DNA from: Lysobacteraceae bacterium
GTDB taxonomy: Bacteria; Pseudomonadota; Gammaproteobacteria; Xanthomonadales; Xanthomonadaceae
Length of the DNA stretch: 64,000 bases
Direction: 5' to 3'
Assembly (NCBI GenBank): GCA_021299355.1
Contig: JAJTGG010000002.1
Span: 20,227-84,226 of the forward strand
A program made the position numbers and the translations under genes. Under the pieces are notes generated by a model. The model did not search any database. It saw only the letters and a program-made list of their open reading frames with translations, and was not told the DNA's origin. Below are positions 1,583-8,907 of this stretch, one piece after another. Each line of letters begins with the position of its first letter. Within the stretch, counting starts at the first letter, position 1.

Positions 1583-1843
1583 ATGAACAGTCCGAACACG
1601 CATGTCCTGCGGATACTGAGCCATCCGGATACCTTCCGCAGGCCCTCATTGGTATTGAGCGCCCTGAAGATTTTCTTTCCGATGGATGTCGCAACGCAGT
1701 ATTTCCTTCTGCTTGAAAAAGGAAATGCCGCCGATGTGCAGTTCGGTAGAACCCGGAGCGATCTGGCGATTCTTCGCCGCGGTCTGCAGGCTCAGGGCTT
1801 CCTGATTGAAGTCATCGACCAGCAAAAGACTTCGGAAAACTGA
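1583..1843 (+). CDS. Small hypothetical protein (86 aa)
   Basis: ORF only; intergenic except for a short 3' overlap with the convergent RCC1 gene; no recognised family. Confidence 0.4.
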   Translation: MNSPNTHVLRILSHPDTFRRPSLVLSALKIFFPMDVATQYFLLLEKGNAADVQFGRTRSDLAILRRGLQAQGFLIEVIDQQKTSEN

Positions 1844-3041
1844 TTTCCACCGGCAGCCAGGGGCGCCCAGGGTCCCGCGCACCGAGCAGTTTGGCTTTGT
1901 TGCTGCCCCAGCAGTAGACTTTGTCGGCCATGGTCAAAGCGCACATTCCCCACTCGTTATAAGCCAGCTCGACCACGGGCGCTTCCAGCGCAACGGGCAT
2001 CGGGACCGGCACATTCGGGTAACGGGCGGGATCCTGGCCGGCCGAGCCGTGTTCGTTGTAACCCCAGCAGAAAACCCGGCCTGACGCATCCAGCGCGCAG
2101 TTATGCGACGAGCCACTGCTGAGCTGGACGATGTTTTCAAGGCCGGGGACGGGTCCGGGACTCAGGCGCTGGGCATCCTCGGCGGGGTTGCGCAGACCAT
2201 CTCCGAGCTGGTTTTGGATGTTCGTACCCCAGCAATAGACGCGCTTGCTGACCGCAATCGCGCAGGTATGCAGATAGCCCGGCGTGATCGTGGCCAATTT
2301 TTCGGGAAGATCCAAGACGCGCACCGATTGCATGCGGTCGGTGACGCTGCCGTCGCCAAGCGCACCCCTGCCATTGAAACCCCAGCAGTAGGCCGCGCCC
2401 GAATCACCGACGGCGCAGGCATGGTGCGGTCCGAAGCCGAGATGGATCGCCGGCTCGGGAAGCGGCATCGGTTCCGGACGACTAAAGGTTCTGAATACCC
2501 GGGCGCGCTGCCGGCTGTTGCTTCGGCCGATGGCGCCCCAACAGAACACCTTGCCAGCGGCATCCAAGGCGCACATGCCGTCAAAGCCGGACGCGATGTG
2601 GACGATAGCTGACAACCCGGGAACCGTCATCGGACGGATGACGGGTTGCGCCCTGGTGCCGCCGTCGCCCATCACACCCATGGCCGGATCGCCCCAGCAC
2701 AGCACCTGTCCGGCCGTGGTCAGGGCACAGCTGTGATCGGCACCGCCCTCCATCATGCTGAATGGCCGGTTGAAAGGTATCGCCTGCGGTTCCGGCTGCA
2801 GTGCGAAGCGAGAATTGCCGAGCTGCCCTTTCAGATTATTGCCCCAACACCAGAGCGTGCCGTTCTGATCGTTCCGACAGAGGTGGTTTTCACCTTGATT
2901 GAGCCGGTGCAAGGTCATGCTCAGGACTTTGCCTGAAGCGGGTATCGGCACTCGAGTCTTATCTTCAAGCCGTCTGGAATCCATCAGCATCGTGATGAAA
3001 GCCACCAAACATATGGCATAGATCAGCAGATGGCGCTTCAT
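1812..3041 (-). CDS. RCC1-repeat (beta-propeller) protein with N-terminal hydrophobic anchor/signal
   Basis: Repeated (V/L)(Y/F)CWG.N...(Q/A)LG(D/N)G units; N-term MKRHLLIYAICLVAFITMLM; start codon overlaps stop of upstream kinase (ATGA). Confidence 0.85.
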   Translation of the reverse strand: MKRHLLIYAICLVAFITMLMDSRRLEDKTRVPIPASGKVLSMTLHRLNQGENHLCRNDQNGTLWCWGNNLKGQLGNSRFALQPEPQAIPFNRPFSMMEGGADHSCALTTAGQVLCWGDPAMGVMGDGGTRAQPVIRPMTVPGLSAIVHIASGFDGMCALDAAGKVFCWGAIGRSNSRQRARVFRTFSRPEPMPLPEPAIHLGFGPHHACAVGDSGAAYCWGFNGRGALGDGSVTDRMQSVRVLDLPEKLATITPGYLHTCAIAVSKRVYCWGTNIQNQLGDGLRNPAEDAQRLSPGPVPGLENIVQLSSGSSHNCALDASGRVFCWGYNEHGSAGQDPARYPNVPVPMPVALEAPVVELAYNEWGMCALTMADKVYCWGSNKAKLLGARDPGRPWLPVEISFPKSFAGR

Positions 3042-4633
3042 CGCCGCGGCACCTGCACCAGAAACCCGATTTTCTTGAATGCCGGCTTCCGTCCGTGTCG
3101 GAGGATGCCACCGACCTGACGGGTTTTCTGGACCAAGCCATCAAGTCCGGTCGAGCCGATTTTATTGAAGTTGAAATACCGTTGAATGTCATTGTCACGG
3201 ATGCTGCCGGCAAAGAGGATCTGATCGGCTCTTATGCGCATTCGCAGGTCAATCCAGCATTGATCGGCACGGCTATGCCGAAGGATATTGGTCACCGACT
3301 CCTGGTAAAAGCGGTGGATGTAGGCATAGATTTCCGGCGGCACTTCGCTCCACGCGGGCGACTCCGGCGTGATGGTGAAATGGTAGCCGATTCTGGATCC
3401 GTGCAGGAGCTGGGCGATACGGCCGGAAGTAAGCTCTTGGCTGAGATAGGCGTAATTCATCGGTTGCCGGTCGAGGCTATTGAGCATGTTGCGGATACTG
3501 ACGGAGGTCGACTCCAGCATTGCCGAACCTTTTTCGAAGGCACGCCTTGCGTTGGCGCTTTCCAGTGAATTCTCGAGCGACCGGATATAGATGCTGGCGG
3601 CGACCAGCCCCTGTCCGACCTCGTCATGCAGATCGCGCACGACTTTATCCATCCGTTCGTTAATGACCAGATTCTGGGAATACACGATATCCTGCATGCT
3701 GCGGATCAGAAGATCCTCGCGCTTTTTGGAGTCCGCCAGACTTTCCTGTGTCTGGTTCAGGCGGTTGATGAAAAATGCGATGTAAAGGTTGAAGATGCAC
3801 AGGAAAATCAGATAACTGATGGCGCCGTGCCAGGTGCTGAGCGTCCAGCCGTTATGCTGGCTGGAGAGGATGAGTACCGCCGAAAGACAGCCGACCCAGG
3901 TGGTGACCACCCCGAGCCGGTAGGCCGTGACCGCAAGCCCACCGATCACCAGCAGCAGCACCAGATAGATGAAGGATAGGTTGTTCAGTATTTCGAATAC
4001 CGCCACACCCCCCCGATACAGCAGATACAGCAGAATCGGCATTGCCAACGCCATGGCGACCGACCCGCGCCTATATCCCGGATTATCAATGACATAGACA
4101 GCAAAGAACCCGAAGACGACCGCAGACAGGGAATAAATGGCCAGCGTGGCATAAGCGGCGCTGATCAGATAGAAGAAATCCCGCGGTTTGCTGAAATGCC
4201 CGAACACCAGCATGGCGGTGATGGTGGCCGCCGATATCGCGCCGATGAACAGCACATAGCGGGGGAAAATAGCCGGACGCTCACCTGCGGAGGATTTGAT
4301 ATCGCGGACCAAAAACCAGGCGGACAGGTAAGTCGTGGCGATGCCGACGAGGTGGGCCTGGTAGGCGATGGGGTCTAAGAAGTTATAAATTCCATAGCCC
4401 GGATTGATGGACACCATGGCGGCTTCCAGCAGGGCTGCGGGCAAATAGTAGCGGGCCGGAAGCCGCAGGATGACAACCAACCGCAGACCGAACAGCGTGC
4501 TGATGTAGATGCCTTCGATATCACCGCCGATAAAAACCAAAAGGCTCAGCGCCAGAACGGCGATGATACTACCCTTGCTCATGGTTTCCGTTTTTGCTTT
4601 AAAGGCGCGATTCATAGATACAGGGTGCAACAA
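3038..4633 (-). CDS. NarL/UhpB-type membrane histidine kinase (multi-TM sensor, HisKA_3-like H-box, HATPase-like C-terminus)
   Basis: About 8 hydrophobic segments; H-box VRDLHDEVGQGL; N-box YQESVTNILRHS; G2-like GSTGLDGL. Confidence 0.8.
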   Translation of the reverse strand: MLHPVSMNRAFKAKTETMSKGSIIAVLALSLLVFIGGDIEGIYISTLFGLRLVVILRLPARYYLPAALLEAAMVSINPGYGIYNFLDPIAYQAHLVGIATTYLSAWFLVRDIKSSAGERPAIFPRYVLFIGAISAATITAMLVFGHFSKPRDFFYLISAAYATLAIYSLSAVVFGFFAVYVIDNPGYRRGSVAMALAMPILLYLLYRGGVAVFEILNNLSFIYLVLLLVIGGLAVTAYRLGVVTTWVGCLSAVLILSSQHNGWTLSTWHGAISYLIFLCIFNLYIAFFINRLNQTQESLADSKKREDLLIRSMQDIVYSQNLVINERMDKVVRDLHDEVGQGLVAASIYIRSLENSLESANARRAFEKGSAMLESTSVSIRNMLNSLDRQPMNYAYLSQELTSGRIAQLLHGSRIGYHFTITPESPAWSEVPPEIYAYIHRFYQESVTNILRHSRADQCWIDLRMRIRADQILFAGSIRDNDIQRYFNFNKIGSTGLDGLVQKTRQVGGILRHGRKPAFKKIGFLVQVPRR

Positions 4634-4726: not shown

Positions 4727-5326
4727 ATGATACGGATTATCTTATTGGAAGACCATGCCATTGTCCGTGAGGGCGTCCGGTTTCTTCTCGACCAAGAAAC
4801 CGATATGTCCGTTATCGCCGAATTCGATTCTCCAGAGCAGCTATTCGACGCGTTGCCCGGACTGGATACGGACATCCTGATCACCGATCTGGATTTCGAG
4901 AAATTCAAAGGTATCGAGATTCTGCAGCATCCGTCTGCCATCACCAGCAAGTGCCGCACCATCGTACTGTCGATGCATGGCGAAGCGCATCTGGTCAAGC
5001 GCGCGATGGATCTCGGCGTATTCGGCTACGTCACTAAATCCCGCGGTGCGCGGGAATTGGTGAATGCAATCAACGAAGTGCACAATGGGCACTTCTACCT
5101 CAGCGACGACATACGCAACCAGATTGCCGCCACGCCACCGCATATCACCAAGCGCGAACGGGAAGTCCTGATGCTTCTGCTCAACGGCGAAACCGCGAAG
5201 GCTATCGGCGCACAGCTCGGTATTTCCGATAAGACCGTATACATCCATCGCGCCAGCCTAATGGAAAAATTCAGCGCCAAGACCCTTATCGAGCTCGGGC
5301 ACAAAGCCCGCGAAGCCGGCATCTGA
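4727..5326 (+). CDS. NarL/LuxR-family response regulator
   Basis: Receiver MIRIILLEDHAIVREGVRFLL...ITDLD...LSMH...YVTKS plus LuxR HTH ITKREREVLMLLLNGETAKAIGAQLGISDKTVYIHRASLMEK; divergent from the kinase. Confidence 0.9.
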   Translation: MIRIILLEDHAIVREGVRFLLDQETDMSVIAEFDSPEQLFDALPGLDTDILITDLDFEKFKGIEILQHPSAITSKCRTIVLSMHGEAHLVKRAMDLGVFGYVTKSRGARELVNAINEVHNGHFYLSDDIRNQIAATPPHITKREREVLMLLLNGETAKAIGAQLGISDKTVYIHRASLMEKFSAKTLIELGHKAREAGI

Positions 5327-6354: not shown

Positions 6355-6379
6355 GGTCTCTTTACTCCTGACGGAAAGT

Positions 6380-6406
6380 TTAGCACTCTGGGCCTTAGAG
6401 TGCTAA
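6380..6406. promoter_or_regulatory. CIRCE element (HrcA operator)
   Basis: Exact TTAGCACTC-N9-GAGTGCTAA, ending 25 bp upstream of the rpoH ATG. Confidence 0.9.
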
Positions 6407-6487
6407 CCGCCCTGTAGAGTTCCCGTGAAGCCACCTTGGTCCACGCGCCACATAAACTATAATATTATTCAATATCAATGAGTTAAT

Positions 6488-7165
6488 TTATAACCGCCAG
6501 TCCATAGGAGGCTGCCCACGGCCCTGAAGATAGCGGTTGGCGGCGGAAAAGTGTCCGCAGCCCAGAAATCCACGGTGTGCCGAAAGTGGCGAGGGGTGTG
6601 GCGCCCGCAGAATGCAGTGGCGGTTGCGGTCGATGCGGACGCCCTTGGCCTGGGCATAGGCACCCCAGAGCATGAATACCAGTCCGTCGCGCTGCGCGGA
6701 CAGCGCACTGATGGCGCTATCGGTGAAAGCCTCCCAACCTTTGCCCTGATGCGAACCGGCCTTGCCGGCTTCCACGGTCAATACGGCATTGAGCAACAGA
6801 ACGCCCCGCTCCGCCCATGGCGTCAGGTTACCAGTGACGGGGCGCGGCAGACCGAGATCGCGCTCGATTTCCTTGAAAATATTCTGCAGCGAGGGCGGCG
6901 GCGGCACGCCGTCGGGCACGGAAAAACTCAGGCCGTGCGCCTGTCCAGACCCATGGTAGGGATCCTGGCCGAGAATGACCACGCGTACCGCCTCGAATGG
7001 CGTACGGTTGAAGGCATTGAAAATCAGCGGGCCGGGCGGATGGATGACTCGGCCTTTGGCTTTTTCGGTACGCAGAAATGTGCTCAGGCCACGCATCGGA
7101 GCCGATGCCAAAGCCGCGCCCAGATAGCGCTGCCAGGATTCGGACAGCTGACCCTCGGCACTCAT
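6488..7165 (-). CDS. ung: Uracil-DNA glycosylase
   Basis: VVILGQDPYHGSGQAHGLSFSVPDGVPPPPSLQNIFKE; HPSPLSAHRGFLGCGHFSAAN. Confidence 0.97.
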   Translation of the reverse strand: MSAEGQLSESWQRYLGAALASAPMRGLSTFLRTEKAKGRVIHPPGPLIFNAFNRTPFEAVRVVILGQDPYHGSGQAHGLSFSVPDGVPPPPSLQNIFKEIERDLGLPRPVTGNLTPWAERGVLLLNAVLTVEAGKAGSHQGKGWEAFTDSAISALSAQRDGLVFMLWGAYAQAKGVRIDRNRHCILRAPHPSPLSAHRGFLGCGHFSAANRYLQGRGQPPMDWRL

Positions 7166-7299
7166 CGCGAGCGCTGGCGATTCCGATCGATCAGATGAAG
7201 CAGATCCATGGCAAACAGCACATGACGGACCATCTTCGAGCCATCCACCATGACCGTGTGCGGATGCTGCAAATCCAATGGCAGGAAGGCAAGCGCCAT
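7162..7299 (-). CDS. Un-annotated small ORF, 45 aa: MALAFLPLDLQHPHTVMVDGSKMVRHVLFAMDLLHLIDRNRQRSR
   Basis: Below the ORF-track size cut-off; start overlaps ftsX stop (TGATG), stop overlaps ung start (ATGA); fills the whole inter-gene gap. Confidence 0.6.
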   Translation of the reverse strand: MALAFLPLDLQHPHTVMVDGSKMVRHVLFAMDLLHLIDRNRQRSR

Positions 7300-8222
7300 C
7301 ACCTGTCCACCGGTCGGGTCAGACGAAGATAGTGACCGGCGGCGAGACGAGCTCCGAAAACTCCAAGCAAGGTAGCCGCCGCCAGCACTACCGGCGGCAG
7401 AAAGAGCGGTAACGGCGTAAAGGCAAAGTCACTGCCATAACTTCGAATCAGGCCCAGAATTTCGGGGCTGATGGCAAAAGCCGCCGCCGCCAAAATGCCG
7501 AGCGCCAGCGCACCGGCCAGAAACCCGAGCAGACCGCCGGCATACAGGAGCGGCCGGCGGATATAGGCATCACCGGCACCGAGCTGCTGCATCACCACGA
7601 TTTCCTGTTCGCGCGTGGCGATATCCAAACGGATGTTGTTGGCGACCGCCAACACGGCACCGCTGACGAACAGCACGGTCAGCAGCAGCAGCAAACGCTG
7701 GCCGAAGGCCAACCAGGCATTGAGGCGGTTTTGCCAGATGCCATCATACTGCACGTACTCGGCTTCCGGAAGCGCCTGCAGTCGGCTCAACAGCGCTGTT
7801 TCATCATCGCGTGGCGTCACGATCATCACCGCCGGCAGCGGATTTTCGCCGAGCACTGCCACGGCTTTGGCCAAGGCACTGCTGTCCTTGAAATCGGCCA
7901 AGCCCTGTTCCGGTGTTTTCACGGTGACGGCAGCGACATCGGCATTGCCTTGGAAGCTTCCGGCAATGGCTTTGGCCTGCGTGACGCTGACCGCCGGCTG
8001 GAAGAAAACCTGGATGGCGCGCGAGGTCTGCACCTGCGATGCCAATTGATTCATCTGCAGCATCGACCAGGCCAAGGCCAGCGGCAGGGCCAGCGCGATG
8101 GCCATCACCGCCAGCGACAGCACACTGGAGAACGGTCGGCGCAGAAGCCGCGCGAAACTGCCGCGGAATGCGGCGGCATGCTGTGCCCGCCAGGCAGCGA
8201 AGGCGCTGTAGGAATTACTCAT
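7299..8222 (-). CDS. ftsX: Cell-division ABC transporter permease FtsX
   Basis: Four TM segments; LALPLALAWSMLQMNQL...VQVFFQPAVS-like ectodomain; downstream of ftsE; start MSNSYSAF overlaps ftsE stop. Confidence 0.93.
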   Translation of the reverse strand: MSNSYSAFAAWRAQHAAAFRGSFARLLRRPFSSVLSLAVMAIALALPLALAWSMLQMNQLASQVQTSRAIQVFFQPAVSVTQAKAIAGSFQGNADVAAVTVKTPEQGLADFKDSSALAKAVAVLGENPLPAVMIVTPRDDETALLSRLQALPEAEYVQYDGIWQNRLNAWLAFGQRLLLLLTVLFVSGAVLAVANNIRLDIATREQEIVVMQQLGAGDAYIRRPLLYAGGLLGFLAGALALGILAAAAFAISPEILGLIRSYGSDFAFTPLPLFLPPVVLAAATLLGVFGARLAAGHYLRLTRPVDR

Positions 8223-8907
8223 CGGCCAACTCCTCCGGCGAGATGTCATCCATCAGGCGGCCCTTGTCGATGACCAGCACGCGCTTTTTCATGCGTTTGA
8301 CCAGCGCCAGGTCATGACTTGCGATGACCACCGCTGTACCTTGTGCACACATTCCGACCAGCTGCTGCATGATGTCGGCGGCCAGGCCCGGATCGAGATT
8401 GCCGGTCGGCTCATCGGCCAACAGCAGGGTCGGCCGGGTCACCATGGCACGCGCGATGCCGACCCGCTGCTGCTCGCCGGTAGAGATGTCGGTGGAACGG
8501 TGGCCGGCACGCCCGGCAAGACCCAGGCTCTGCAGCGTCTGGTGCACGCGCTGACGGATGAGCGCGGGCGACATGCCGGCAATCTGCAACGGCAAGGCGA
8601 CATTGTCGAACACGGTGCGGTCCAGCAGCAGACAGTGATCCTGATGCACCAGGCCGAGGCGGCGGCGGTGCAGGGCGGCCTTGCCGCCGCGCAGATCGGC
8701 GAGATTGCGGCCGTCGAACCAGACTACGCCGGCACTCGGACGCTCGGACAGATGTGCCAGCTTGAGCAGCGTGCTTTTGCCGGCACCGGAATGTCCGGTG
8801 ATGAATAGCATTTCGCCGGCCTGAACGGAAAAACTCAGGTCATTCAGGGCGAGATGGCCACCCGGATATTTTTTGCTGACGCCGTCGAAGCGCAGAAGTG
8901 TCATCAC
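8215..8907 (-). CDS. ftsE: Cell-division ATP-binding protein FtsE
   Basis: Walker [10 protein letters not shown], signature [14 protein letters not shown], Walker [13 protein letters not shown]. Confidence 0.96.

Follow-up and report, generated by a model that had tools for sequence, protein, structure and literature searches.

The window analysed here (the whole 64-kb stretch of DNA) contains an open reading frame for the heat-shock sigma factor RpoH, which scored 405 bits against TIGR02392 of NCBIfam (cut-off 323) and whose product is 98% identical to the RpoH of Arenimonas genomes (Table 1). The genes are arranged in the order ftsE-ftsX-ung-rpoH, and the ftsX-rpoH neighbourhood is conserved and shared with Escherichia coli. 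Read-through from ung into rpoH is possible. The host is an Arenimonas-like gammaproteobacterium (Lysobacterales), represented by a metagenome-assembled genome (MAG) of 1.66 Mb in 74 contigs that is 85% complete. Elsewhere in the window, a 409-aa open reading frame (1812-3041, minus strand) contains CWG..GQLG repeats that look RCC1-like by eye and has no NCBIfam match. A UhpB-like histidine kinase gene (3038-4633, minus strand) lies divergent from a gene for a UhpA-like response regulator (4727-5326, plus strand), both scoring below the curated cut-offs.

Table 1. Genes and sequence elements around the start of rpoH, in window coordinates.
Feature	Position	Strand	Basis or remark
rpoH, heat-shock sigma factor sigma-32, 287 aa	5491..6354	-	TIGR02392
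Probable Shine-Dalgarno AGGAG of rpoH	6365..6369	-	sequence
Extended -10 like element TGCTAAACT	6377..6385	-	CIRCE right arm (TGCTAA closes it) plus three bases
CIRCE operator (predicted HrcA site)	6380..6406	-	palindromic, given on the rpoH strand; kept in relatives
Sigma-E-type -10 element TCTAA	6395..6399	-	TC shared with the end of the CIRCE left arm; conserved spacing
Sigma-E-type -35 element GGAACTC	6417..6423	-	sequence; conserved spacing
ung, uracil-DNA glycosylase	6488..7165	-	next gene upstream of rpoH, same direction
ftsX-like permease	7299..8249	-	FtsX_Gneg best match, 234 bits, under cut-off 255
ftsE-like ATPase	8215..8907	-	FtsE best match, 255 bits, just under cut-off 265

The initial annotation had claimed an exact CIRCE operator 25 bp before rpoH, and this was confirmed. 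The site reads TTAGCACTC-TGGGCCTTA-GAGTGCTAA, a 9-9-9 inverted repeat of the form TTAGCACTC-N9-GAGTGCTAA that agrees with CIRCE at 18 of 18 arm positions, with a spacer of 9 and zero mismatches. Its distance from the ATG of rpoH is exactly 25 bases (6355-6379), which places it upstream of and near the start of a heat-shock gene, as expected of this operator. No other CIRCE match was found in the window and none in 100 shuffles, and base composition predicts only ≈1e-5 exact sites for the whole assembly.

The repressor that should act on such a site is encoded in the same genome, as the initial annotation had wished to see confirmed. The gene hrcA was found on another contig (C72) with a full match to PF01628 (218.6 bits, 7.3e-65); the open reading frame is 344 aa long from its likely ATG and grpE follows directly behind it. 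A scan of the rest of the assembly for CIRCE with up to three mismatches, likewise proposed at the outset, returned a single further site, which has one mismatch and lies upstream of groES in groESL (C45:18145-18171). The genome also encodes RpoE (contig C17; TIGR02939, 295.9 bits, cut-off 236).

What the initial annotation missed, while being right about the CIRCE site itself, is that this site overlaps two conserved promoter-like elements. The rpoH strand reads GGAACTC-N17-TCTAA, followed by TGCTAAACT. A GGAACTT-like -35 element, a spacer of 16–17 bases and a TC in the -10 element are the features of a sigma-E-type promoter, and all are found here together with rpoE in the genome; the -35 element of the window is one base off GGAACTT, the form seen in most relatives. 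The element TGCTAAACT in turn fits the TGnTAnnnT hexamer context of an extended -10 sigma-70 promoter. Motif spacing alone would place the transcription starts of rpoH at about 6389 for sigma-E and about 6370 for the extended -10.

Both elements are conserved among the relatives of the window RpoH, a set of 80 loci mostly named Arenimonas, Stenotrophomonas, Lysobacter, Luteimonas, Pseudoxanthomonas and Xanthomonas. GGAAC is found 16–17 bases from the TC of the left arm in 71 of the 80, and GGAAC or TGAAC at this distance in 31 of 35 loci sampled from the class and order, compared with ≈3% expected from shuffles. TGnTAnnnT is present in 79 of the 80 relatives. Its final T is not needed by CIRCE; three bases beyond the right arm, a T is found in 57/61 rpoH sites but in only 10/25 groES sites (p 3e-7). 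Thus the groES sites mostly lack this promoter-type T and the GGAAC element that the rpoH sites carry. The extended -10 mostly persists even where CIRCE has been lost (L010, L063, L072, L049, L070 and L074). A sigma-32-like promoter (CTTGA-N12-15-CCCC) was also sought upstream of rpoH and was found neither in the window nor in its lineage. In 15 of 81 relatives (0.7 expected) such a motif is present ≈120–210 bases before the gene (L008, L009, L012, L014, L019, L021, L023, L035, L064, L066 and others), which suggests autoregulation by sigma-32 there.

CIRCE or a close variant was found 19–40 bases before the matched rpoH start in nearly all of the 80 relatives. The Arenimonas sites are canonical or one base off, while the form TTAGCAGTC-N9-GACTGCTAA is common at rpoH in Stenotrophomonas, Lysobacter and Pseudoxanthomonas; here both arms are changed and the symmetry is kept. 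Under the canonical pattern the Stenotrophomonas sites had seemed to decay, an impression that was dismissed once they were recognized as the symmetric variant GCAGTC/GACTGC, and later search patterns therefore allowed C or G at these positions. Within Lysobacteraceae (L022-L083) the rpoH operator has moved symmetrically from GCACTC/GAGTGC to GCAGTC/GACTGC. The putative recognition helix of HrcA reads RNIL in the GCAGTC/GACTGC lineages and RNIM in Arenimonas, with one transition on the tree, which we note only as a lead. Some lineages mix the arm types at rpoH, with one of each kind, and the groES arms in the same genomes are canonical, hybrid or in some cases of the G type. Since both arm forms thus occur within genomes that have one HrcA each, that HrcA would have to read both.

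We then asked how the site is distributed relative to hrcA, using a strict composite pattern of CIRCE arms, start codon and RpoH N-terminal motif. This pattern recovers only 56 of the 80 known loci, and all counts obtained with it are therefore lower bounds. Among 199 genomes of Lysobacterales the site was found in 57 of the 89 that carry hrcA and in 0 of the 110 that do not (Fisher 4e-27), and by genus in 24/41 with hrcA against 0/28 without (7e-8); these values overstate the association because the samples are clumped by phylogeny. A sample of 369 gammaproteobacterial genomes from 271 genera gave 25 genomes in 20 genera with the pattern, and by tblastn the gene downstream was rpoH at every one of the 25 loci. 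The genomes behind these loci encode hrcA in 23 cases; the other two are MAGs (75% and 77% complete) whose family mates have the gene. The strict pattern is thus kept at orthologues and, in the Lysobacterales sample, absent without hrcA, as expected of a CIRCE operator, while relaxed matches persist in some Stenotrophomonas that lack hrcA.

The correspondence has exceptions on both sides. A few genomes carry hrcA without a site at rpoH (L010, L050, L072), and in Xanthomonas hrcA is present and the left arm is degenerate. Conversely, no hrcA could be detected in a small Stenotrophomonas cluster centred on S. acidaminiphila (L025, L049, L054, L067, L068, L070, L074), and the four of these searched for a canonical CIRCE at groESL (L049, L067, L068, L070) had none. 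On the rpoH tree, the loss of hrcA in Stenotrophomonas amounts to about two changes. In this cluster the right arm is kept and the left arm has decayed only partly, so that decayed sites stand next to two near-complete palindromes without detected hrcA (S. pictorum, strain PS02298). Two further records deserve mention: the genome of L015 (G082) contains two full hrcA genes, and L080, from a record titled Bacillus subtilis SK7B5, has a Stenotrophomonas-type rpoH according to the tree and thus comes from a mislabelled or contaminated assembly.

Could the palindrome be explained without HrcA? In an incomplete and fragmented MAG such as this one, the match might be suspected to be accidental or to stem from faulty assembly or binning, but hardly any exact site is expected by chance, and the same site at the same distance is found in independently sequenced Arenimonas isolates and in other genera. 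As the site is conserved, this explanation can already be regarded as refuted, with practically no probability left to it. The arms might also act at the RNA level, by folding the rpoH leader into a hairpin that serves, for instance, as a thermometer or stability element. They can indeed pair (-16.3 kcal/mol for the 55-base leader), and CIRCE hairpins have been proposed elsewhere to affect mRNA stability. With the predicted starts located within the left arm or beyond it, however, only one side of the stem would remain in the mRNA, and hybrid sites of the form TTAGCACTC-N9-GACTGCTAA break the pairing, yet occur in several lineages (L021, L023, L073, L084). Both points make a hairpin function very improbable, and the Shine-Dalgarno sequence moreover lies outside the stem.

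More of the data can be accommodated by supposing that the palindrome is kept for its promoter parts, the left arm as the sigma-E -10 and the right arm as the extended -10, and that HrcA is inactive on rpoH today. Promoters alone can account for the conservation of parts of the arms. The right arm with TGnTAnnnT persists after the loss of hrcA or of the left arm in the six loci named above for the extended -10, and the degenerate left arm of the hrcA-bearing Xanthomonas would fit as well. Four observations are left unexplained by promoter needs: the left arm has its TTAGCA half, Arenimonas matches at 18/18 positions, the two arms have changed symmetrically (C to G and G to C), and the strict pattern is lacking in all 110 genomes without hrcA. 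We therefore find this account unlikely, although it deserves more credit than a hairpin. By contrast, we consider it likely that 6380-6406 works as an operator at which HrcA covers the promoters of rpoH and thereby represses the gene. Because the arrangement recurs in many relatives that carry HrcA, the CIRCE at rpoH is very probably a real control switch.

The initial annotation had suspected that such wiring might already have been predicted in other proteobacteria, and rightly so: Rodionov et al. (2004; PMC545781, Table 8) list a predicted CIRCE in front of the Geobacter sulfurreducens rpoH, at -51 relative to the start codon. The connection of HrcA and CIRCE with rpoH is therefore not new. 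Like the site of the window, the Geobacter site is an exact TTAGCACTC-N9-GAGTGCTAA in front of rpoH, and its genome likewise encodes hrcA and has a CIRCE at groESL. The Geobacter case differs in belonging to a deltaproteobacterium, in the position at -51 and in the presence of a further CIRCE at hrcA-grpE-dnaK-dnaJ, and PMC545781 reports no overlap with a sigma-E promoter. The well-known control of groESL by HrcA uses the same operator, of which the host has its one-mismatch copy, but at the locus described here the target is the sigma factor gene itself. In the literature searched (HrcA with rpoH in Xanthomonas and Xylella, RegPrecise, rpoH promoter) we found no statement of a CIRCE at a gammaproteobacterial rpoH; the reviews and regulon papers on Xanthomonas and Xylella place HrcA at groESL and hrcA-grpE-dnaK-dnaJ and mention no operator at rpoH. 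Nor did this search return a description of the nesting in a sigma-E promoter or of the geometry conserved across the class, though Permina and Gelfand (2003), whose survey of beta-, gamma- and epsilonproteobacteria lay outside it, may list gammaproteobacterial cases.

The closest counterpart of the promoter is found in E. coli, where TGAACTT-N16-TCTGA lies upstream of rpoH in the same place behind ftsX, and no CIRCE is found there. This promoter, P3, is transcribed by RpoE (PMC8103513). It shares with the window the gene, the neighbourhood on the ftsX side and a sigma-E-type -35 element (TGAACTT in E. coli) with similar spacing to TC (16 bases, N17 in the window). A control search of E. coli with the Pfam HrcA model gave no match. 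To our knowledge HrcA is absent from this species, and its sigma-32 is controlled mainly after transcription.

The reading of the initial annotation, control of rpoH by HrcA, is thus supported by the conservation of the site and by its absence from all sampled Lysobacterales that lack hrcA. The idea that the two heat-shock regulators are wired in series holds as far as this control is concerned and needs refinement in one respect: the CIRCE overlaps both the sigma-E-type promoter and the extended -10 element, so that HrcA, sigma-E and probably sigma-70 would meet on the same DNA. On these sequence grounds we can outline how the switch might work; HrcA binding, repression, the use of the sigma factors and the start sites are all predicted, and the dependence on GroEL is suggested by analogy with HrcA in other bacteria, where inactivation by heat or unfolded protein through GroEL is established. 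At ordinary temperature a dimer of GroEL-folded HrcA would sit on 6380-6406 and cover the -10 region and start site of the sigma-E promoter as well as the extended -10 at 6377-6385, blocking both sterically. Under heat, or once GroEL is taken up by unfolded protein, HrcA would be inactivated, either directly or via GroEL. rpoH would then be derepressed together with groESL, sigma-32 would turn on further chaperone genes, and the rising level of GroEL would restore HrcA. Envelope stress would enter through sigma-E, only as far as HrcA allows.

For the Gammaproteobacteria that carry hrcA as a whole, we lean, with some reserve, towards a more general picture. In these bacteria CIRCE would be built into the P3-type sigma-E and extended -10 promoters of rpoH, and HrcA, as a relay for the availability of GroEL, would gate the basal and the envelope-stress transcription of sigma-32. 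E. coli would represent the same promoter ungated, and the Lysobacteraceae an operator shifted to GCAGTC/GACTGC. The genomes that have lost hrcA provide natural controls for the arrangement. If HrcA does occupy the sigma-E promoter of rpoH, a repressor tied to the cytoplasmic chaperones and an envelope-stress sigma factor would compete for one stretch of DNA, and in Gammaproteobacteria other than E. coli rpoH would gain a transcriptional feedback loop via GroEL.
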